Below, one piece after another: positions 4,250 through 63,134 of a stretch of 64,000 nt of DNA. Positions within the stretch are counted from its first letter, which is position 1. Each line of letters begins with the position of its first letter. The DNA lies in contig NC_020453.1 of assembly GCF_000344805.1 (NCBI RefSeq), positions 1,240,001 through 1,304,000 on the forward strand. The letters are read 5' to 3'. Below the pieces are notes generated by a model. The model was given only the letters and a program-made list of their open reading frames with translations. It had not been told where the DNA came from and did no database searches. This DNA is from Bradyrhizobium oligotrophicum S58. GTDB lineage: Bacteria > Pseudomonadota > Alphaproteobacteria > Rhizobiales > Xanthobacteraceae. A program made the translations under genes and the position numbers.

Positions 4250-5749
4250 TCACGCCGTGAGCTTGCGATGCAGCTCCTGAAGCGAAGCGCTCTTTGGCCG
4301 GTTGTCGAAATGCTTGAGCGAGTCGAGGTAGAGCTTGAACTGACGGTCGATCGCCTCGCGTCGTCCTTGCGCCTTGAACACCTGCATCGCCTCGGCATGC
4401 GCCATCTCGCACAAGGGATCGATCGCCAGCGCCTTCTGGCAATGCGCGAGTGCGGCCGAGTAATCGTTGCGTTCGAGATAGATCCGCGCCGCGTCGCGTT
4501 GCACCTTGAAGAACATGTCGCGCAGCCAGTAGCGCTTGCTCCAGCACCAGTCGCGCTCGCCATCGTCGGCGTACTCGACCGGAATGTCCTCGAACAGGTC
4601 CCCGGTGTAGAGGCGGTCCGCCGCCTGCAGGCAGATCAGCGCCTCGTCGCTGGAGCCGGCCTTGATGTGACCCTGGGACTGACGGCAGAGCTGTTCGAAG
4701 GTCGAGATGTCGAGCCAGCTGCGCTCCGGCGGCACCAGCACGTAGCGCGATCCCTCGCGTCGAACATAGTTGCGCGTCTCGTCGCGTTCGTTGGGCTGGC
4801 CGAGCGCCAGCCGCAAATAGCGCACGGTGTGATAGAGGCGGTTGCGCGCGGCCTCGATGTCCTTGGCGTCGGGCCAGAGCAGATCCGCAAGCTCGTCGGT
4901 GGCTGCGCCATGGCCGCCCTTCTGCAGCAGATAGGCGAACAGGGTCTTGGTCTTGCGGGTCGCTCCGCCGGGCGGGTCCCAGTTCACCTGGCTGCCGTCG
5001 TTGCGGTAGATCCGCAAGCGTCCGAAGCAGCGGATCTTCCAGCGGTCGCGGCTGTCGAGATGAATCGTACTGGGCTCTTCCGCCGAGCGGCGCAACAGCC
5101 ACATGGGGTCGGCGCCTTCGGCTGCGTGCAGCGCGGCGGCCGATGTCCCGATCCGTAGCTCCGGCGCGATGGCGCCGAGCCAGAAATCGACCTGCTCGCG
5201 CAGCGCGCCGCGCGTCTGCAGCCGCGACGGTAGCCAATGCGGATTGTCCACCGGTCCCTTGCTGGTGAGAATCTGCGGATGGCCGCGTAGCGCGACGAGC
5301 AACTGCTCGTCGATCAGCACCCGGCGGTTATACAGAGAGGCAATCGAGACCTCGGACTGCTGGGTGAGCGCTTCCGCAAGTGCAGGCCAGCCCTCGAAAT
5401 TGGCCGTCGCCGAGTTGGTCTCGAGGCCCCAGCTCATGTCGACGACGAGCAGGGCAGGGCCTTGTTTGCGGGTTGGCGAGATCCACCTCTCGATTCGGCT
5501 CGCGACATCTCGAAACGAGATCGGCACCTGCAGCAGCGCCATCTCGGCAAAGCTCTTGCCCTCGGCGAATCCGACGTTCTTGATGCGCTTTACGAGCTTC
5601 TCGACCCGCGCGACTGCGTTGGCATCCGCCGCGATCACAAAGATCCGGCAGGGTTTTGCAGCAGTCTGGTAAAGCTTGAAGAAGTCCGCAAAAAGAAGCT
5701 TTTGCTGCGTCGCGAACAGCGCGAGGTTGACACAACTATTCTTGGTCAT
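4250..5749 (-). CDS. MEDS-domain / BTAD (SARP-like) transcriptional regulator
   Basis: The protein has 499 residues. Residues about 10-165 resemble the MEDS sensory domain of DcmR-type regulators: LLVVDMSWGLE and SIASLYNRRVLIDEQLLVALRGHPQIL are typical blocks. Residues about 235-330 form a winged-helix DNA-binding segment (KIRCFGRLRIYRNDG ... ARNRLYHTVRYLRLALG). Residues about 340-495 are the TPR-like bacterial transcriptional activation domain, as in SARP regulators. It sits just upstream of the P450 cluster on the same strand, with a 207-bp gap, so it is the likely activator of those genes. MEDS domains are thought to sense small hydrocarbon-like ligands; the ligand here is unknown. Confidence 0.82.
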   Translation of the reverse strand: MTKNSCVNLALFATQQKLLFADFFKLYQTAAKPCRIFVIAADANAVARVEKLVKRIKNVGFAEGKSFAEMALLQVPISFRDVASRIERWISPTRKQGPALLVVDMSWGLETNSATANFEGWPALAEALTQQSEVSIASLYNRRVLIDEQLLVALRGHPQILTSKGPVDNPHWLPSRLQTRGALREQVDFWLGAIAPELRIGTSAAALHAAEGADPMWLLRRSAEEPSTIHLDSRDRWKIRCFGRLRIYRNDGSQVNWDPPGGATRKTKTLFAYLLQKGGHGAATDELADLLWPDAKDIEAARNRLYHTVRYLRLALGQPNERDETRNYVRREGSRYVLVPPERSWLDISTFEQLCRQSQGHIKAGSSDEALICLQAADRLYTGDLFEDIPVEYADDGERDWCWSKRYWLRDMFFKVQRDAARIYLERNDYSAALAHCQKALAIDPLCEMAHAEAMQVFKAQGRREAIDRQFKLYLDSLKHFDNRPKSASLQELHRKLTA

Positions 5750-6623
5750 GGGTACTCACCCGCGACAACCCCATTGCGGTCAGCTGAGGTAGTCTAAGAG
5801 CGGCCGCCGGATAGTTGCAAGGCCTTGCGGCGTCTCTGGGTGATGGGTGAGCATGCCAGCCGCTCGCGCGAATCGGGCAGCGAGCCGGTCCGATGGACAA
5901 CGCGCGAGCGCGAATTCCTGGAAGCCAGGGAGACGGACCGGCTTGCTGATCGTCTGGTCTGACGGCTAACCAACGACCGAACATCGCTTGACTCAACCGT
6001 CGATGTGAAACACGGGACGGAAGGCGCGTCGCCGTATCGTGACGACGCATACAGCAGCATGACTCGAACCCGGCGAGGCACGCCGCCGGAGAACGACGGC
6101 CGCCAGACCAACGGGACGGCGAAGCGACAGCTCGCAGGGCGGACCGCATTCCTTGGGCGTATGACCGGGGGAAACATTCCTGTTTTCGCCGCTTCGTACG
6201 AGCGCATGGATTGATCGAGCGGCGCGTCCAGACTCGGATTACTTCTATTAAAAACTGGACTTTGATCATAACGCGCCTTTGGGATGCAAAAGCCTCCACT
6301 TTCATCCTGCCGAAACCTCGGCACTGTCCCTATCGGACTGTCGGGCAGGCGTACTGATCTGAGCCCCCCAGGATGCGACCCATCTCGATAGCCAACGCAG
6401 GTTCCGCCAAGGCAGTCGCGCGGACCATCATCCGATCCGGCTCATATCCTGCGGCCGAAGACGCATTTGGTCTCTGTCATTCTCGACCCGGCCGTCGTCG
6501 GCCCGTTGGCAGAAAGGCTGGTGCCGCTCTGCCGCAGCGTGTGATCACGCACTGCCGAAACGGGTGCGCGTGCGTACCCGTTCGCCTGCATTGAGGGACG
6601 CGCGACGGAGGAGCAAAGGGGTC
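5750..6623. other. Intergenic region between divergent regulator genes
   Basis: These 874 bp separate the MEDS-BTAD regulator (minus) from the AraC-type regulator (plus). Several open frames cross the stretch on both strands, but none gives a protein with family features, a convincing ribosome binding site or a coherent composition. It probably holds promoters for both regulators. A local A/T-rich stretch around 6239-6265 is the most promoter-like part. Confidence 0.4.
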
Positions 6624-56242: not shown

Positions 56243-57508
56243 ATGAACCATTTCGACTACCGCGACGGCGTGCTGCACGCCGAGGCCGTCAATCTCACCT
56301 CACTCGCGGCCACCGTCGGGACCCCGTTCTACTGCTACTCCACCGCCACGCTTGAGCGGCACTACCGCGTGTTCGCGGACGCCTTCGCCGGCCAGGACGT
56401 CTTGATCTGCTACGCGATGAAGGCCAATTCCAACCAGTCGGTGCTGCGCACGCTCGCCAAGCTGGGCGCCGGCGCCGACGTCGTCTCCGGCGGCGAGCTG
56501 AAGCGCGCGCTGGCGGCCGGCATCCCCGCACGGAAGATCGTGTTCTCAGGCGTCGGCAAGACAGAGGCCGAGCTGCGCGCCGCGCTCGCGGCCGACATCC
56601 ACTGCCTCAACATCGAGTCCGAGCCCGAGCTCGATCTGCTGGCGCGGCTCGCCCAGGAGACCGGCCACACCGCCCGCATCTCGGTGCGCGTCAACCCGGA
56701 CGTCGATGCCGGCACGCACGCCAAGATCTCGACCGGCAAGTCGGAGAACAAGTTCGGCATTCCCTTGGAGCACGCCCGCAAGGTCTACGCCCGCGCGGCC
56801 AAGATGAAGGGCATCGCCGTCACCGGCGTCGACGTCCACATCGGCAGCCAGATCACCGATCTCGGCCCCATGGAGACCGCGTTCCGCATCCTCACCGAGT
56901 TCGTGCAGACCCTGCGCGCCGATGGCCACACCATCAGCCACGTCGATTTCGGCGGCGGCCTCGGCATCCCCTATCACCTCGACGGTGCGGTGCCGCCGGA
57001 GCCCGCCGCCTATGCCGCGATGGTCAAGCGCATCTCGCACAATCTCGGCTGCACCCTGATGTTCGAGCCCGGCCGCATGATCGTCGGCAATGCCGGCATC
57101 CTCGTCGCCAAGGTGATCTATGTGAAGCACGGCGAGGCCAAGAACTTCGTCATCATCGACGCCGCGATGAACGACCTGATCCGCCCGACGCTCTACGAGG
57201 CCCATCACGACATCCTGCCCGTGAAGCAGCCCGCGCCGAACGCGCCGGCGTTCGTGGCCGATGTCGTCGGGCCGGTCTGCGAAAGCGGCGACTACCTCGC
57301 CCTCGACCGCGCGCTGCCCGAACCTGCGCCCGGCGACCTCCTCGCCATCATGACCGCAGGCGCCTACGGCGCCGTGCAGGCCTGCACCTACAACACCCGC
57401 GCGCTGGTGCCCGAGGTGCTGGTGAAGGGGGATCAGGCCGCGGTGATCCGGCCGCGGATCGAGGTCGAGCAGCTGATCGCGATGGATACGCCGGCGCCGT
57501 GGTTGTGA
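56243..57508 (+). CDS. lysA: Diaminopimelate decarboxylase
   Basis: The 421-residue enzyme has the PLP lysine in YAMKANSNQSVL, the phosphate-binding HIGSQI, FGGGLGIPY, MFEPGRMIV and the catalytic CESGDYLA. It makes lysine from meso-diaminopimelate. Last core gene before the accessory segment. Confidence 0.97.
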   Translation: MNHFDYRDGVLHAEAVNLTSLAATVGTPFYCYSTATLERHYRVFADAFAGQDVLICYAMKANSNQSVLRTLAKLGAGADVVSGGELKRALAAGIPARKIVFSGVGKTEAELRAALAADIHCLNIESEPELDLLARLAQETGHTARISVRVNPDVDAGTHAKISTGKSENKFGIPLEHARKVYARAAKMKGIAVTGVDVHIGSQITDLGPMETAFRILTEFVQTLRADGHTISHVDFGGGLGIPYHLDGAVPPEPAAYAAMVKRISHNLGCTLMFEPGRMIVGNAGILVAKVIYVKHGEAKNFVIIDAAMNDLIRPTLYEAHHDILPVKQPAPNAPAFVADVVGPVCESGDYLALDRALPEPAPGDLLAIMTAGAYGAVQACTYNTRALVPEVLVKGDQAAVIRPRIEVEQLIAMDTPAPWL

Positions 57509-57674: not shown

Positions 57675-57790
57675 CCCCACTGTCATCGTCCGCGAAAGCG
57701 GACGATCCAGTACGCCGTGACGTCTCGGTTCAATATCCACTGCCGCGGAGTACTGGATGCCCCGCTTTCGCGGAGCATGACAGCGGTGGA
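57675..57790. repeat. Inverted-repeat element at the 5' end of the argC fragment
   Basis: Two related arms face each other: 57675-57720 (ACTGTCATCGTCCGCGAAAG...) and 57746-57790 (inverse: ...CTTTCGCGGAGCATGACAGC). The left arm is itself a hairpin with stem GTCCGC-GAAA-GCGGAC. This type of element is common in bradyrhizobial intergenic DNA. It ends 16 bp before the argC-like frame starts. Confidence 0.85.
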
Positions 57791-59047: not shown

Positions 59048-59120
59048 TTGAGGGAGCCGGATTCGGACCGACATCTCCAAGCCTTTAGGGGCGGGTGTCC
59101 TACCATTGGACGAGCCCCGA
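59048..59120 (-). tRNA. tRNA-like sequence with degenerate anticodon arm (probable pseudo-tRNA)
   Basis: The minus strand, 73 nt, has a D-arm GTCC-AATGGTA-GGAC with the conserved A14, GG and A21, and a T-arm GTCGG-TCCGAAT-CCGGC, both at correct spacing. The acceptor stem pairs at only about five of seven positions, and the anticodon arm region (CCCGCCCCTAAAGGCTTGG) cannot form a standard 5-bp stem with a 7-nt loop. If the loop is CCCTAAA the anticodon would read CTA, but position 33 would be C, not U. No CCA is encoded. I regard it as a decayed tRNA. Confidence 0.4.
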
Positions 59121-59421: not shown

Positions 59422-60327
59422 ATGACGAACAGTGAGGACTTTGAAGACCGCGCGCGAAAGGAACGTAGCCCATCTTACCCGTTTATCTCTCTGCCTAAGG
59501 CCCTTGAGCGCGCTAAGGCGTTTGACGAGGCTCACCGCCGCAGCGCTGCGCGCTTGGCGACAGTCGCCGGAACGTGGGGGTATTCACCATCGAGTAGCGG
59601 GTTGCTTCAAACGGCCTCCGCTCTGAAAGCTTACGGCCTTTTGGAAGATAGTGGAAGGGGCGACGACCGGAAAGTGCAGCTTTCCGATCTTGCGCAGAGG
59701 ATCCTTCACGATGCCCGCCCGGGGGCTCGCGAAGCGGCCATCAGGGAAGCCGCAATGCGCCCTCGATTATTCTCAGAATATGGGGAAAAATGGCTTCCTC
59801 AGCGTCCTAGCGACAGTCACTGCCTAAGCGAATTGCGGTTGGACAGAGGCTTTACCGAAGCTGCCGCGAGCTTGTTCTTGCGATCGTTTGACGAGACTGT
59901 CGCCTTCTCGGGTCTTAAAGAGATTGATAAGTCATCAAATGATCTTGACCAGGATGGGCAAGCAGTAGCGGTAAATCTGGGCCGATCGGCTCCCATGAGT
60001 ACTCAACTATCTTCAGCGTCTGGCGTTGGATTGCGCGGTGCGAGAATGGGGACCTATCCCCATCAGACTGGATCAGGTGCGCAGGCCCAGGAGGCCGGGA
60101 TTGCAATGCAGCCGCCGCGAGCCACGTTGCCTCTTCCTGAAGGAATGGCCGCGCTGGAAATTCCGCAGCGATTGTCCCGGAAGAGCTGGGAGGCGCTTAG
60201 GGCTTGGACCGACCTGATGGTCTCCTTGTCTGAGCCCATGCCAGATCACCTGCGTAGTCAAGCTGGCGATAGTTCAGGAGATCGGCATTCAGGGGGCGAT
60301 GATGAGGATCGTGATTCTCGGGATTAG
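59422..60327 (+). CDS. Hypothetical protein with winged-helix-like N-terminal domain, neighbour of the retron-type RT
   Basis: The ATG follows CGAGGAGCGGCG. The 301-residue protein has a widespread but unnamed N-terminal domain (residues about 15-165): SPSYPFISLPKALERAKAFD, WGYSPSSSGLLQTASALKAY, GLLEDSGRGDDRKVQLSDLA and RPRLFSEYGEKWLPQRPSD. The pattern suggests a winged helix acting on DNA or as a regulator. The C-terminal half is Ser/Gly/Gln-rich with an acidic tail. It may be the accessory protein or regulator of the retron unit; its codon use is AT-richer than the core genes. Confidence 0.72.
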   Translation: MTNSEDFEDRARKERSPSYPFISLPKALERAKAFDEAHRRSAARLATVAGTWGYSPSSSGLLQTASALKAYGLLEDSGRGDDRKVQLSDLAQRILHDARPGAREAAIREAAMRPRLFSEYGEKWLPQRPSDSHCLSELRLDRGFTEAAASLFLRSFDETVAFSGLKEIDKSSNDLDQDGQAVAVNLGRSAPMSTQLSSASGVGLRGARMGTYPHQTGSGAQAQEAGIAMQPPRATLPLPEGMAALEIPQRLSRKSWEALRAWTDLMVSLSEPMPDHLRSQAGDSSGDRHSGGDDEDRDSRD

Positions 60328-60577: not shown

Positions 60578-60786
60578 TTCGGGCGTTAGAGGTCTGAGAT
60601 CGTCATGCCAGCCCAAGCTCTGCATAGAACTACGCTGGTGTTCCCAGCCGGACGAAAGATGGCCGGTTGCAGTTGCGTGACTCAGACATCTTAGGTATGG
60701 CTTCCATTAAGCGCCCCCTCGCATACCGCGCTGTCGTAACTGCGGCGTCTGACTCAACGGTTGATAATATGATCCGCGGCCCGAAT
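60578..60786 (+). ncRNA. Candidate retron msr-msd RNA
   Basis: Upstream of the RT I find a nested set of complementary segments. Outer pair: TTCGGGC (60578-60584) with GCCCGAA (60779-60785), possible a1/a2. Inside: a stem at 60606-60640 (TGCCAGC with GCTGGTG), another at 60645-60669 (CAGCCGG with CCGGTTG), and a long hairpin with GCAGTTGCG (60669-60677) pairing CGTAACTGC (60735-60743) and an inner GGTATG/CATACC. GTTAG follows the 5' arm, where retrons keep the priming G. An alternative pairing GTCTGAG (60592) with CTCAGAC (60681) competes. Found by eye, so structure is tentative. Confidence 0.33.
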
Positions 60787-60826
60787 CCTATGGGAACGGG
60801 CGAGAAGGAGGGGGCGCCCTTTCACC

Positions 60827-62392
60827 ATGCCTATGTTACCCAAAGCACTCGGGTCGGCTAACGACTTCTATGCGTATCTCGGTGTAGGGGCAGGCGAGCG
60901 AAAATTCTTAGAAAATCACGCTTTTCATCGATACACGCAAATACAGGTTCCGAAGCGGCGCGGCGGAAATCGACTTTTGATGGTGCCGGAGCGAAGGCTA
61001 AAGTTTCTACAGCGCAAAACGCACCAACTCCTGCTTCAGCTTTACACTCCCCGTGCACCCGTGCATGGTTTCGTTAAACAAAGGGGCGCGATCACTAATG
61101 CCGGTGAACATCAGAGGCGACCGTACCTCCTCAATATTGACGTTCGCAACTTCTTCGGAGTGATCTCTCGGCGCCGAGTGCGCGGAATGCTAGCAAGCAT
61201 GGGGCTTCCGGACGAGACTGCAGAAGCAATATGCTCGATCTGCGTCACAGCAAACCAACTCCCGCAGGGTGCTCCGACCTCTCCGATCCTTTCAAACTTA
61301 GTGGCCTATCGTCTCGACCGAGATCTTATGACGTTCGCGAAAGCGTATCGATTGAGATACACACGTTATGCGGACGACATCTCATTCTCAAGCTATGCAC
61401 CTCCGCTGGCGCTCTTTAACGCCGGGTTACCTATCCCCGGCAGGGTGAAGCCAGATCAACTTTCGGTCGCACTTGCTGCAGCGTTTTCCTCCAACGGTTT
61501 CGAAGTTGCTGCTGACAAGGTGTGGTATGCCGGTCCAAAAACACGGAAGGAGGTTACGGGCCTCGTCGTAAACGAATTCACGAATGTAAGGCGCACGTTC
61601 ATCCGCAACCTTCGCGCGGCTCTTTATAAGACAGAGAAATTGGGGCTTGCGGCGGCGCAATCCGATTATCAGAAGAAATACAAGACGCAATCGACCTTGG
61701 AGCAGATCCTTCGTGGACGACTGGAATGGGTCGCGCAAGTTCGAGGGCGTAGCTTCGGCCCCTATCGAACTCTCGCCAAGCGGTTCAATCAGCTGTTTCC
61801 TAATTCCCCAATTCCGATCTCTCCGACTTATGATGAAGTTGCAGAGCGTTCAGTTTGGGTGGTCGAGTTTTGGATCGACGAAGCAAGTAACGGGCAAGGA
61901 ACTGCTTTCTTCCTTGAGAGTGTTGGATTAGTGACGGCTCATCACGTCCTAGAAAGTTTGCCTTCGGGTGCGACGGCGGACCTCTTTAGGCCAAGTAACG
62001 GCGGCAAGAAATTCAAAGCTTGGCCATCGAGCCGCAAATGTCCCTATCGCGACTTAATGATACTAGAACATGACGTGCCACCAAGCGAATACCTTAGTTT
62101 ACCTGTGGTAACGTCCCCTGAACGACCGCATGATCATATCGCGGCGCTTGGGTTCCCTGCTTACGCTCCGGGAGATCAGCTTAGCAAGAGATCAGGTCAG
62201 ATCCATGGAAGCGTCACGAGACATGCTGTGAAATTCGTGGAGGTCTCCGCAGTGCTGTCCGATGGTCTTAGCGGAGGGCCGATCGTAAATGATCTACATC
62301 AAGTGGTCGGTATTGCGCACAAGGGTGGAGGTTCGGAGCATAAGCAATTGGCTGTTGACGTTTCCGAGCTTCTCAAGCTCGCAACCGAATGA
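60827..62392 (+). CDS. Retron-type reverse transcriptase fused to a trypsin-like protease
   Basis: The 521-residue protein has an N-terminal RT (residues about 20-320) and a C-terminal serine protease (about 340-515). RT landmarks: the retron NAxxH motif as NAGEH (91-95), LLNIDVRNFF, LPQGAPTSPILSNL, the catalytic YADD (181-184), and the retron VTG motif in KEVTGLVVN (243-245). Protease landmarks: VTAHHV with His373, YRDLMIL with Asp409 and DGLSGGPIV with Ser482, so the triad looks intact. Start at 60827 or the in-frame ATG 6 bp later. No IS or group II intron maturase domain is visible. RT-protease fusions are, as I recall, one of the known retron classes, probably used in phage defence; the target of the protease is unknown. 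Confidence 0.9.
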   Translation: MPMLPKALGSANDFYAYLGVGAGERKFLENHAFHRYTQIQVPKRRGGNRLLMVPERRLKFLQRKTHQLLLQLYTPRAPVHGFVKQRGAITNAGEHQRRPYLLNIDVRNFFGVISRRRVRGMLASMGLPDETAEAICSICVTANQLPQGAPTSPILSNLVAYRLDRDLMTFAKAYRLRYTRYADDISFSSYAPPLALFNAGLPIPGRVKPDQLSVALAAAFSSNGFEVAADKVWYAGPKTRKEVTGLVVNEFTNVRRTFIRNLRAALYKTEKLGLAAAQSDYQKKYKTQSTLEQILRGRLEWVAQVRGRSFGPYRTLAKRFNQLFPNSPIPISPTYDEVAERSVWVVEFWIDEASNGQGTAFFLESVGLVTAHHVLESLPSGATADLFRPSNGGKKFKAWPSSRKCPYRDLMILEHDVPPSEYLSLPVVTSPERPHDHIAALGFPAYAPGDQLSKRSGQIHGSVTRHAVKFVEVSAVLSDGLSGGPIVNDLHQVVGIAHKGGGSEHKQLAVDVSELLKLATE

Positions 62393-63058: not shown

Positions 63059-63134
63059 CGTCATTGCGAGCGGAGCGAAGCAATCCAGAGTCCCGCCCGC
63101 AGCCCTGGATTGCTTCGCTGCGCTCGCAATGACG
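63059..63134. repeat. Inverted repeat GTCATTGCGAGC...GCTCGCAATGAC
   Basis: Two arms of about 30 bp, CGTCATTGCGAGCGGAGCGA and its inverse, are separated by a short spacer with CCAG ends. This is a well-known class of short interspersed repeat in bradyrhizobia and relatives. It would make a strong hairpin in RNA. Confidence 0.85.

Follow-up and report, generated by a model that had tools for sequence, protein, structure and literature searches.

A type XI retron of Bradyrhizobium oligotrophicum: a structured msr-msd RNA followed by a reverse transcriptase-protease fusion gene

The window analyzed here, a stretch of 64,000 nucleotides from Bradyrhizobium oligotrophicum S58 (contig NC_020453.1), carries a well-supported case of a complete, single-gene retron of type XI: an msr-msd RNA followed by a gene for a retron reverse transcriptase (RT) fused to a trypsin-fold serine protease. 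Judged by sequence comparison, it is highly probable that the element belongs to the type XI family and that its RNA forms an a1/a2 helix together with msr loops and an msd hairpin. Retrons were reportedly classified in a 2020 paper by Mestre, and type XI is a catalogued but little-studied kind of which the Bradyrhizobium element is a further, sparse member. Our searches of the literature on retron proteases, type XI, msDNA and RT-TIR proteins returned no experimental study of type XI among the matches listed. The available text of one source describes retrons as encoded alongside effector genes that include proteases (PMC8867640), and that of another, on myRT, reports Trypsin_2 domains, and also MBL folds, occasionally near RT genes of any class (PMC8934634).

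The fusion gene occupies positions 60827-62392 of the forward strand, a complete open reading frame (ORF) that runs from an ATG start through its stop codon and encodes 521 aa. The ORF is real, with exactly the bounds, start and length given to it in a first-pass annotation of this DNA, whose statement that RT-protease fusions are a classified kind of retron also proved correct, the kind being PADLOC type XI. The protein matches the RT-Protease_XI models of PADLOC (PDLC02959 and PDLC02960) over its full length, PDLC02960 at 531.5 bits (E 6e-160), with residues 6-520 covering profile positions 4-505 of 506; the same models were matched by all 31 sequences of alignment A1, which includes the window's. 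The runner-up PADLOC model, RT-TIR_XII, reached 301.5 bits over the RT part only. The full-length match, the order of the domains and the single-gene layout are all those of type XI, and we saw no protein-level difference from that type in the window copy. Pfam places the RVT_1 core of the retron RT at residues 41-189 (60947-61393, forward strand; E 7e-16) and a Trypsin_2 domain at residues 358-496 (61898-62314, forward strand; E 5e-11), both above the gathering cut-off and both in one chain with a short linker between RT and Trypsin_2 domain. Retron families also top the NCBIfam matches of the RT at 265, 219 and 170 bits, none of them reaching its own cut-off, and among solved structures the best matches of the RT part are the RTs of retrons Ec67 and Ec86. 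The matches of the retron I-C models are confined to the RT part, none going past residue 337, and no C-terminal Toprim domain was found.

Both halves of the protein retain their catalytic residues. The NAxxH and VTG motifs are signatures of retron RTs, and the RT half contains NAGEH (residues 91-95, 61097-61111), the catalytic motif YADD (residues 181-184, 61367-61378) and, beyond the RVT_1 core, VTG (residues 243-245, 61553-61561), all on the forward strand and all as the first-pass annotation had described them. The protease triad that it had proposed is likewise in place, with forward-strand codons at 61943-61945 (His373), 62051-62053 (Asp409) and 62270-62272 (Ser482). These three residues, together with Asp183 and Asp184 of the RT, are invariant in 79/79 sequences of alignment A2, which comprises the window's protein and 78 of the 119 others among the best 120 of 2848 matches, hand-picked for near-full coverage with some redundant sequences dropped. 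The triad is also intact in all 50 RT-protease ORFs taken from fetched loci, among them the copy in the window, though only His and Asp are freely tested there because these ORFs had been picked by a G-x-S-G-G motif. Six positions ahead of Ser482, 57 of the 79 A2 sequences carry I, V, M or L (the residue is not displayed in 9/79). By chymotrypsin numbering, such a residue would argue against a preference for Arg or Lys, a point on which we do not rely without a structure. The C-terminal part by itself still matches Trypsin_2, and over this part the best structural matches of the family profile are to solved Spl and HtrA proteases; these matches point to a protease fold after residue 340, where the first-pass annotation had expected one.

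Upstream of the gene lies an RNA of which that annotation made no mention. Delimited by covariance models and by comparison between loci, this retron ncRNA (msr-msd) spans 107 nt at 60711-60817 of the forward strand and ends 9 nt before the ATG, so that a structured RNA with an a1/a2 inverted repeat neighbors the gene, as expected of a type XI retron. Its parts follow one another in the order a1, G, stem-loop 1, short stem-loop 2, variable linker, hairpin, short link and a2. The a1 strand, GCGCCCCCTC, occupies 60711-60720, and all 10 a1/a2 pairs show two-sided changes in alignment A5. Directly after it, the G at 60721 is invariant in an alignment of 24 sequences and is the likely priming guanosine. 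Stem-loop 1 of the msr (60728-60748) has a conserved loop (UGUCGUAACUGCG) and two-sided changes in 5 of its 6 pairs. Stem-loop 2 (CAA CGG UUG, 60755-60763), the least secure part, was placed by eye from the comparison; the model's alignment of the window has mostly non-standard pairs here, and family-wide 85% of cells are paired. The msd hairpin (GCCCG...CGGGC, 60779-60801) appears in the energy fold of the window, its helix (helix 4) shows two-sided changes in 5 of 6 pairs, and it would form the core of the reverse-transcribed template. Finally, the a2 strand, GAGGGGGCGC, at 60808-60817, is overlapped by a purine run, AAGGAGG, at 60805-60811; these parts too are read on the forward strand.

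The RNA came to light when the gene's 1500-base upstream flank was set against the stored flanks of 16 other loci. Eight of the 16 flanks matched, all within the last 120 bases before the gene; the other eight were stored on the opposite strand. A script applied to 31 loci found the loop motif, with an inverted repeat around it, in 26, from which L114 was excluded as too divergent and the cut of L198 was reset by hand, giving 25 loci with 24 distinct sequences. RNAalifold, run on a first alignment, saw nothing but stem-loop 1, because a1/a2 was out of register between two lineages; afterwards one lineage was aligned and the rest were searched by covariance model. Model R3, made from 13 sequences taken by locus reference with none from the window's lineage, finds 60711-60817 at 47.3 bits (E 2.7e-9), the next-best match in the 64 kb scoring 9 bits. 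It also recovers nine of the nine untrained clade members supplied to it (of 12), the window's copy included, at E 1e-19 to 7e-6. Model R1, which likewise leaves out the window's lineage and rests on 12 training loci with one row mistyped, matches the same place at 45.8 bits (E 6e-9). The organism's own genome (8.26 Mb) gave no second RNA match at E 0.001, with 150 of 6432 first-look candidates scored.

Covariation supports the proposed structure. In A6, an alignment made free of structure, 10 of 26 pairs show two-sided changes vs 2.2 in shuffles (0/500 as high), and structures slid along the same alignment give 0-3 such pairs. In A5, which was fitted to the model, the counts rise to 23/26 pairs and 111 cells, vs 11.6 and 25.5 in shuffles. 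The structure was picked from these same sequences, so the covariation counts are not blind; the recovery of the untrained lineage is. Since the folding energy of the window's RNA is unremarkable (z -0.63, with a fold that contains a1/a2 and the msd hairpin and lacks stem-loop 1), the case for the RNA rests on conservation and covariation. Rfam gave no retron match over 57-64 kb at E 5. Promoter-like sites numbered 0, vs a chance mean of 1.3, and the one terminator-like site, vs a chance mean of 2.4, lies inside the gene.

We then consider where this RNA occurs. Across 86 loci, R1 gave 31 matches at E <= 1, of which 25 precede type XI genes (12 at its training loci) and six precede genes for RT-TIR fusions. 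The RNA precedes the gene at 25/25 sampled loci of one type XI clade, window included, a clade with a support of 0.997 in the RT tree. The next two RT-proteases outward in that tree (L126 and L122) have no RNA match, and neither R1 nor R2 gives a clear match for the 26 of 51 tree-labelled RT-proteases that fall beyond the 25-member clade, so the same RNA cannot be claimed for all of type XI. R2, a joint model built from all 31 R1 matches, was applied to 75 loci at E up to 10 and returned five further matches, all on the sense strand and upstream of an RT: an RT-TIR (L047, E 0.005), an RT-Toprim of type I-C (L035, E 0.006), an RT-protease (L121, marginal at E 0.06), an RT alone (L029, E 0.5) and, as a 21-nt piece, what is by eye an RT-protease (L123, E 7.6). 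No match was found by R2 in 100 loci of other RTs; the scope of the R2 searches leaves aside nine non-duplicate fetched loci. The L035 match, at 5686-5809 of a cyanobacterial locus, is itself marginal and hints at a reach of the RNA family into I-C. The divergent RT-proteases at L114, L115, L117, L043 and L033 are also preceded, by eye, by an inverted repeat around a short stem-loop, which the models miss. The labels in the RT tree were assigned by a regular expression that missed three RT-protease-like sequences (L120, L026 and L123) and one RT-TIR (L047), and given these omissions and the weak deep supports we make no claim as to a single or multiple origin of the protease fusions.

Within the genus, R2 matched 11 times, in 10 of 265 genomes with our own counted, and 10 of the 11 precede an RT-protease gene: nine are directly upstream of an intact RT-protease identified independently and one is upstream of an interrupted one. 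The eleventh (E 1e-3), antisense over a glycosyltransferase-like ORF, is probably false. At L208 (G532:C1:1554000-1564000), the RNA is kept (88.7 bits) and the RT-protease match stops at ~150 residues, adjoining what by eye is a transposase ORF. The divergent RT-protease of genome G351, a 37% copy, is the only one of the genus's 10 to have no RNA match.

The RNA appears to double as the 5' leader of the gene. Each of the 25 RNAs has a Shine-Dalgarno-like 4-mer (any of six 4-mers, counted without a chance control) within its final 25 nt, and 23 of them have an in-frame ATG, GTG or TTG placed -6 to +10 nt from where a2 ends; the exceptions are L200, with a start at +25, and L019, in which none was found. 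The window has 15 nt between AAGGAGG and the ATG, which is above the usual spacing. Priming of DNA synthesis requires a1 to pair with a2, and this pairing would cover the ribosome site and so could limit the amount of RT-protease made. Our literature searches found nothing on ribosome sites within retron RNAs.

A related RNA also appears to be encoded upstream of genes for type XII (RT-TIR) retrons. Ten RT-TIR loci were searched, nine of them taken by motif along with L047; R1 finds the RNA at six of the ten and R2, which was trained on those six, at seven, with no match at L036, L052 or L053. With R3, the score is 34 bits at L030 (E 3e-5) and 16-20 bits at five further loci (E 0.07-0.6), all at the expected place and on the expected strand; L036, L047, L052 and L053 have no R3 match at that place, and two off-target antisense matches score 13-15 bits. 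Since these E-values are singly insufficient except for L030, the case for homology is made by place, strand and a common sequence in stem-loop 1. PADLOC assigned all seven RT-TIR proteins tested (L074, L086, L063, L030, L051, L067 and L047) to type XII, and the NCBIfam model of this sister type is named 'TIR domain-containing anti-phage reverse transcriptase'. Type XII thus resembles type XI in its RT, the runner-up model for the window's protein, and in the apparently related upstream RNA, but has a TIR domain where type XI has the protease. This sharing of the RNA points to a common RT and RNA core on which effectors can be exchanged, and suggests that types XI and XII may be one chassis with different effectors.

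The retron lies in the AT-richer island that the first-pass annotation described, with a GC content of 0.53-0.60 in five 1-kb steps at 58-63 kb, placed downstream of a lysA-like gene (56243-57508) that has the matching Pfam decarboxylase domains. Elsewhere in the window only the step at 8-9 kb (0.587) is equally low. Imperfect inverted repeats flank the island at 57677-57786 (41-nt arms, 83%) and 63059-63134 (30-nt arms, 97%), and no direct repeats of at least 18 nt were found around it. A forward-strand ORF at 57717-58397 matches only semialdehyde dehydrogenase dimerisation domains (PF22698, PF02774) and resembles a piece of an argC-type gene. On the left side of the island, a tRNA-like sequence on the reverse strand (59048-59120), perhaps a decayed tRNA, scores 22.9 bits vs an Rfam cut-off of 29 and drew no ARAGORN call. 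The lysA-like gene and the conserved gene that follows it are 5.8 kb apart here, 1.6-4.0 kb in nine same-genus relatives and 11.5 kb in one more; the two genes are on different contigs in one relative, neither is present in another, and they are 0.12-0.16 kb apart in four genomes of other families. Six fetched intervals look metabolic by eye, and we therefore do not call the site a defence hotspot.

We compared the neighbors of the RT-protease across 20 loci, using ORFs of at least 70 aa and flanks of mostly ~7 kb but shorter at some loci (1.6 kb downstream in the window, 0.5 and 2.2 kb upstream at L021 and L022, and about 2.5-2.9 kb at L019 and L116). No family is present in more than three loci save the RT-protease itself and ORFs that overlap it in another frame. 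With no gene family recurring in the 20 loci, a dedicated substrate gene alongside is unlikely, and no MBL-fold nuclease emerged as a recurring neighbor of the protease gene. The upstream ORF at 59422-60327 (forward strand, 301 aa) was considered as a partner or antitoxin and rejected, its relatives recurring beside no RT-protease in the same loci. It has no PADLOC, Pfam or NCBIfam match, and the best 120 of its 235 relatives are mostly unnamed or hypothetical, several of them from Bradyrhizobium and one a PadR-family regulator. At E 1e-60, and counting our own genome, RT-proteases are found in 9/265 genomes of the genus (10 RT-proteases in all), 10/391 of the family, 6/397 of the order and 1/385 of the class, the last being our own genome alone; the family, order and class tallies are from even samples of genomes. 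A scan of the genome collection with a single protein as query gave no match, and one with an alignment as query did. A copy in Haematobacter is on a plasmid typed as conjugative. This sparse and patchy spread fits a mobile defence gene.

Retron RTs produce a short branched msDNA by copying the msd. We think it somewhat more probable than otherwise, by analogy with other retrons, that here the msDNA restrains the protease and that phage disturbance of the msDNA frees it. Comparative evidence shows the RNA folded, with its a1/a2 helix, msr loops and msd hairpin; the RT would then bind the msr and copy the msd from the conserved G after a1 into a branched msDNA of ~40-50 nt. The complex of RT and msDNA would keep the C-terminal protease inactive, as proposed for the RT-Toprim retron Eco2, until phage damage to the msDNA, or binding of it, freed the protease to cut one or more host or phage proteins and halt infection. 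As no neighboring gene recurs, the substrate is probably a resident cell protein or one brought by the phage. In the available text on Eco2, in which RT and Toprim form one chain, the msDNA is proposed to occlude the Toprim domain and the phage protein DenB is implicated in its release (PMC12405507). Type I-C retrons such as Eco2/Ec67 thus join RT and effector as type XI does and include the closest solved RT to that of the window, but their effector is a Toprim RNase rather than a protease, and the same text describes Eco2 as a trimer held by msrRNA (PMC12405507). That the state of DNA synthesis may control proteolysis, as the first-pass annotation supposed, is strengthened by the finding of the RNA adjoining the gene.

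Other trypsin domains in phage defence offer a different role, which we consider unlikely, in which the protease would switch on a pro-effector whose gene lies elsewhere in the genome. Outside its own family the protease domain is closest to LmuA of Lamassu (E 2.7e-6) and weakly matches HamA1 (E 0.018), and the available text of PMC12799240 describes trypsin domains of Hachiman and AVAST that unlock a gated MBL-fold nuclease encoded adjacent to them, with the same protease-nuclease gene pair present in Lamassu and DRT systems. These related proteases are likewise fused to a defence protein, but theirs is N-terminal and comes with a nuclease partner, which in that text is always a separate and typically upstream gene (PMC12799240); the protease of type XI is C-terminal, no such family recurs in the 20 retron loci, and the ORF upstream in the window lacks any PADLOC, Pfam or NCBIfam match. 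The lack of a recurring partner, and the single chain with its short linker, would also suit a protease that cuts its own chain, separating RT and protease as a trigger or in maturation. We judge this improbable, as the fusion is retained in the full-length homologues listed, which is what would be expected if the covalent link matters.

Two further readings concern the RT rather than the protease. One is that it resembles the RTs of DRT systems, making DNA without a retron template, with the RNA an expression leader only. The ribosome-site and start-codon counts do make the RNA a 5' leader as well, but it also has the a1/a2 helix, msr loops and msd hairpin of a retron, the RT models are those of retrons, and the Drt2 model reaches 31 bits (cut-off 390) and the Drt3a model 23 bits (cut-off 200); this reading is very improbable. 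The other, an RT of a group II intron or diversity-generating element fused by chance to a protease, has next to no chance of being right: the RT core scores weakly on the maturase model (TIGR04416), at 42 bits against a cut-off of 300, which does not mark a maturase-type RT, and retron RTs are its best solved relatives. The first-pass annotation had set its retron call against just such group II intron or DGR relatives, and with the retron models of PADLOC and NCBIfam scoring best the call stands.

A broader, joint proposal is one that we hold as possible but doubtful: types XI and XII, and perhaps some of I-C, would be one sensor chassis with swapped effectors, in the protease version the copied DNA would directly gate a stand-alone, partner-less protease that kills or disarms through protein cleavage, and the RNA would act as a leader in which a1/a2 limits the RT-protease. 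Now that the RNA is mapped at single-base precision and the catalytic residues are established, gating of proteolysis by msDNA is directly testable. In the parts of the literature available to us, the retron effectors whose activity is described have nucleic acids or NAD as their targets, and a protease effector, if true, would be a different way of stopping infection. Interchangeable effectors on a common RT and RNA core would matter both for understanding how retrons sense infection and for engineering.
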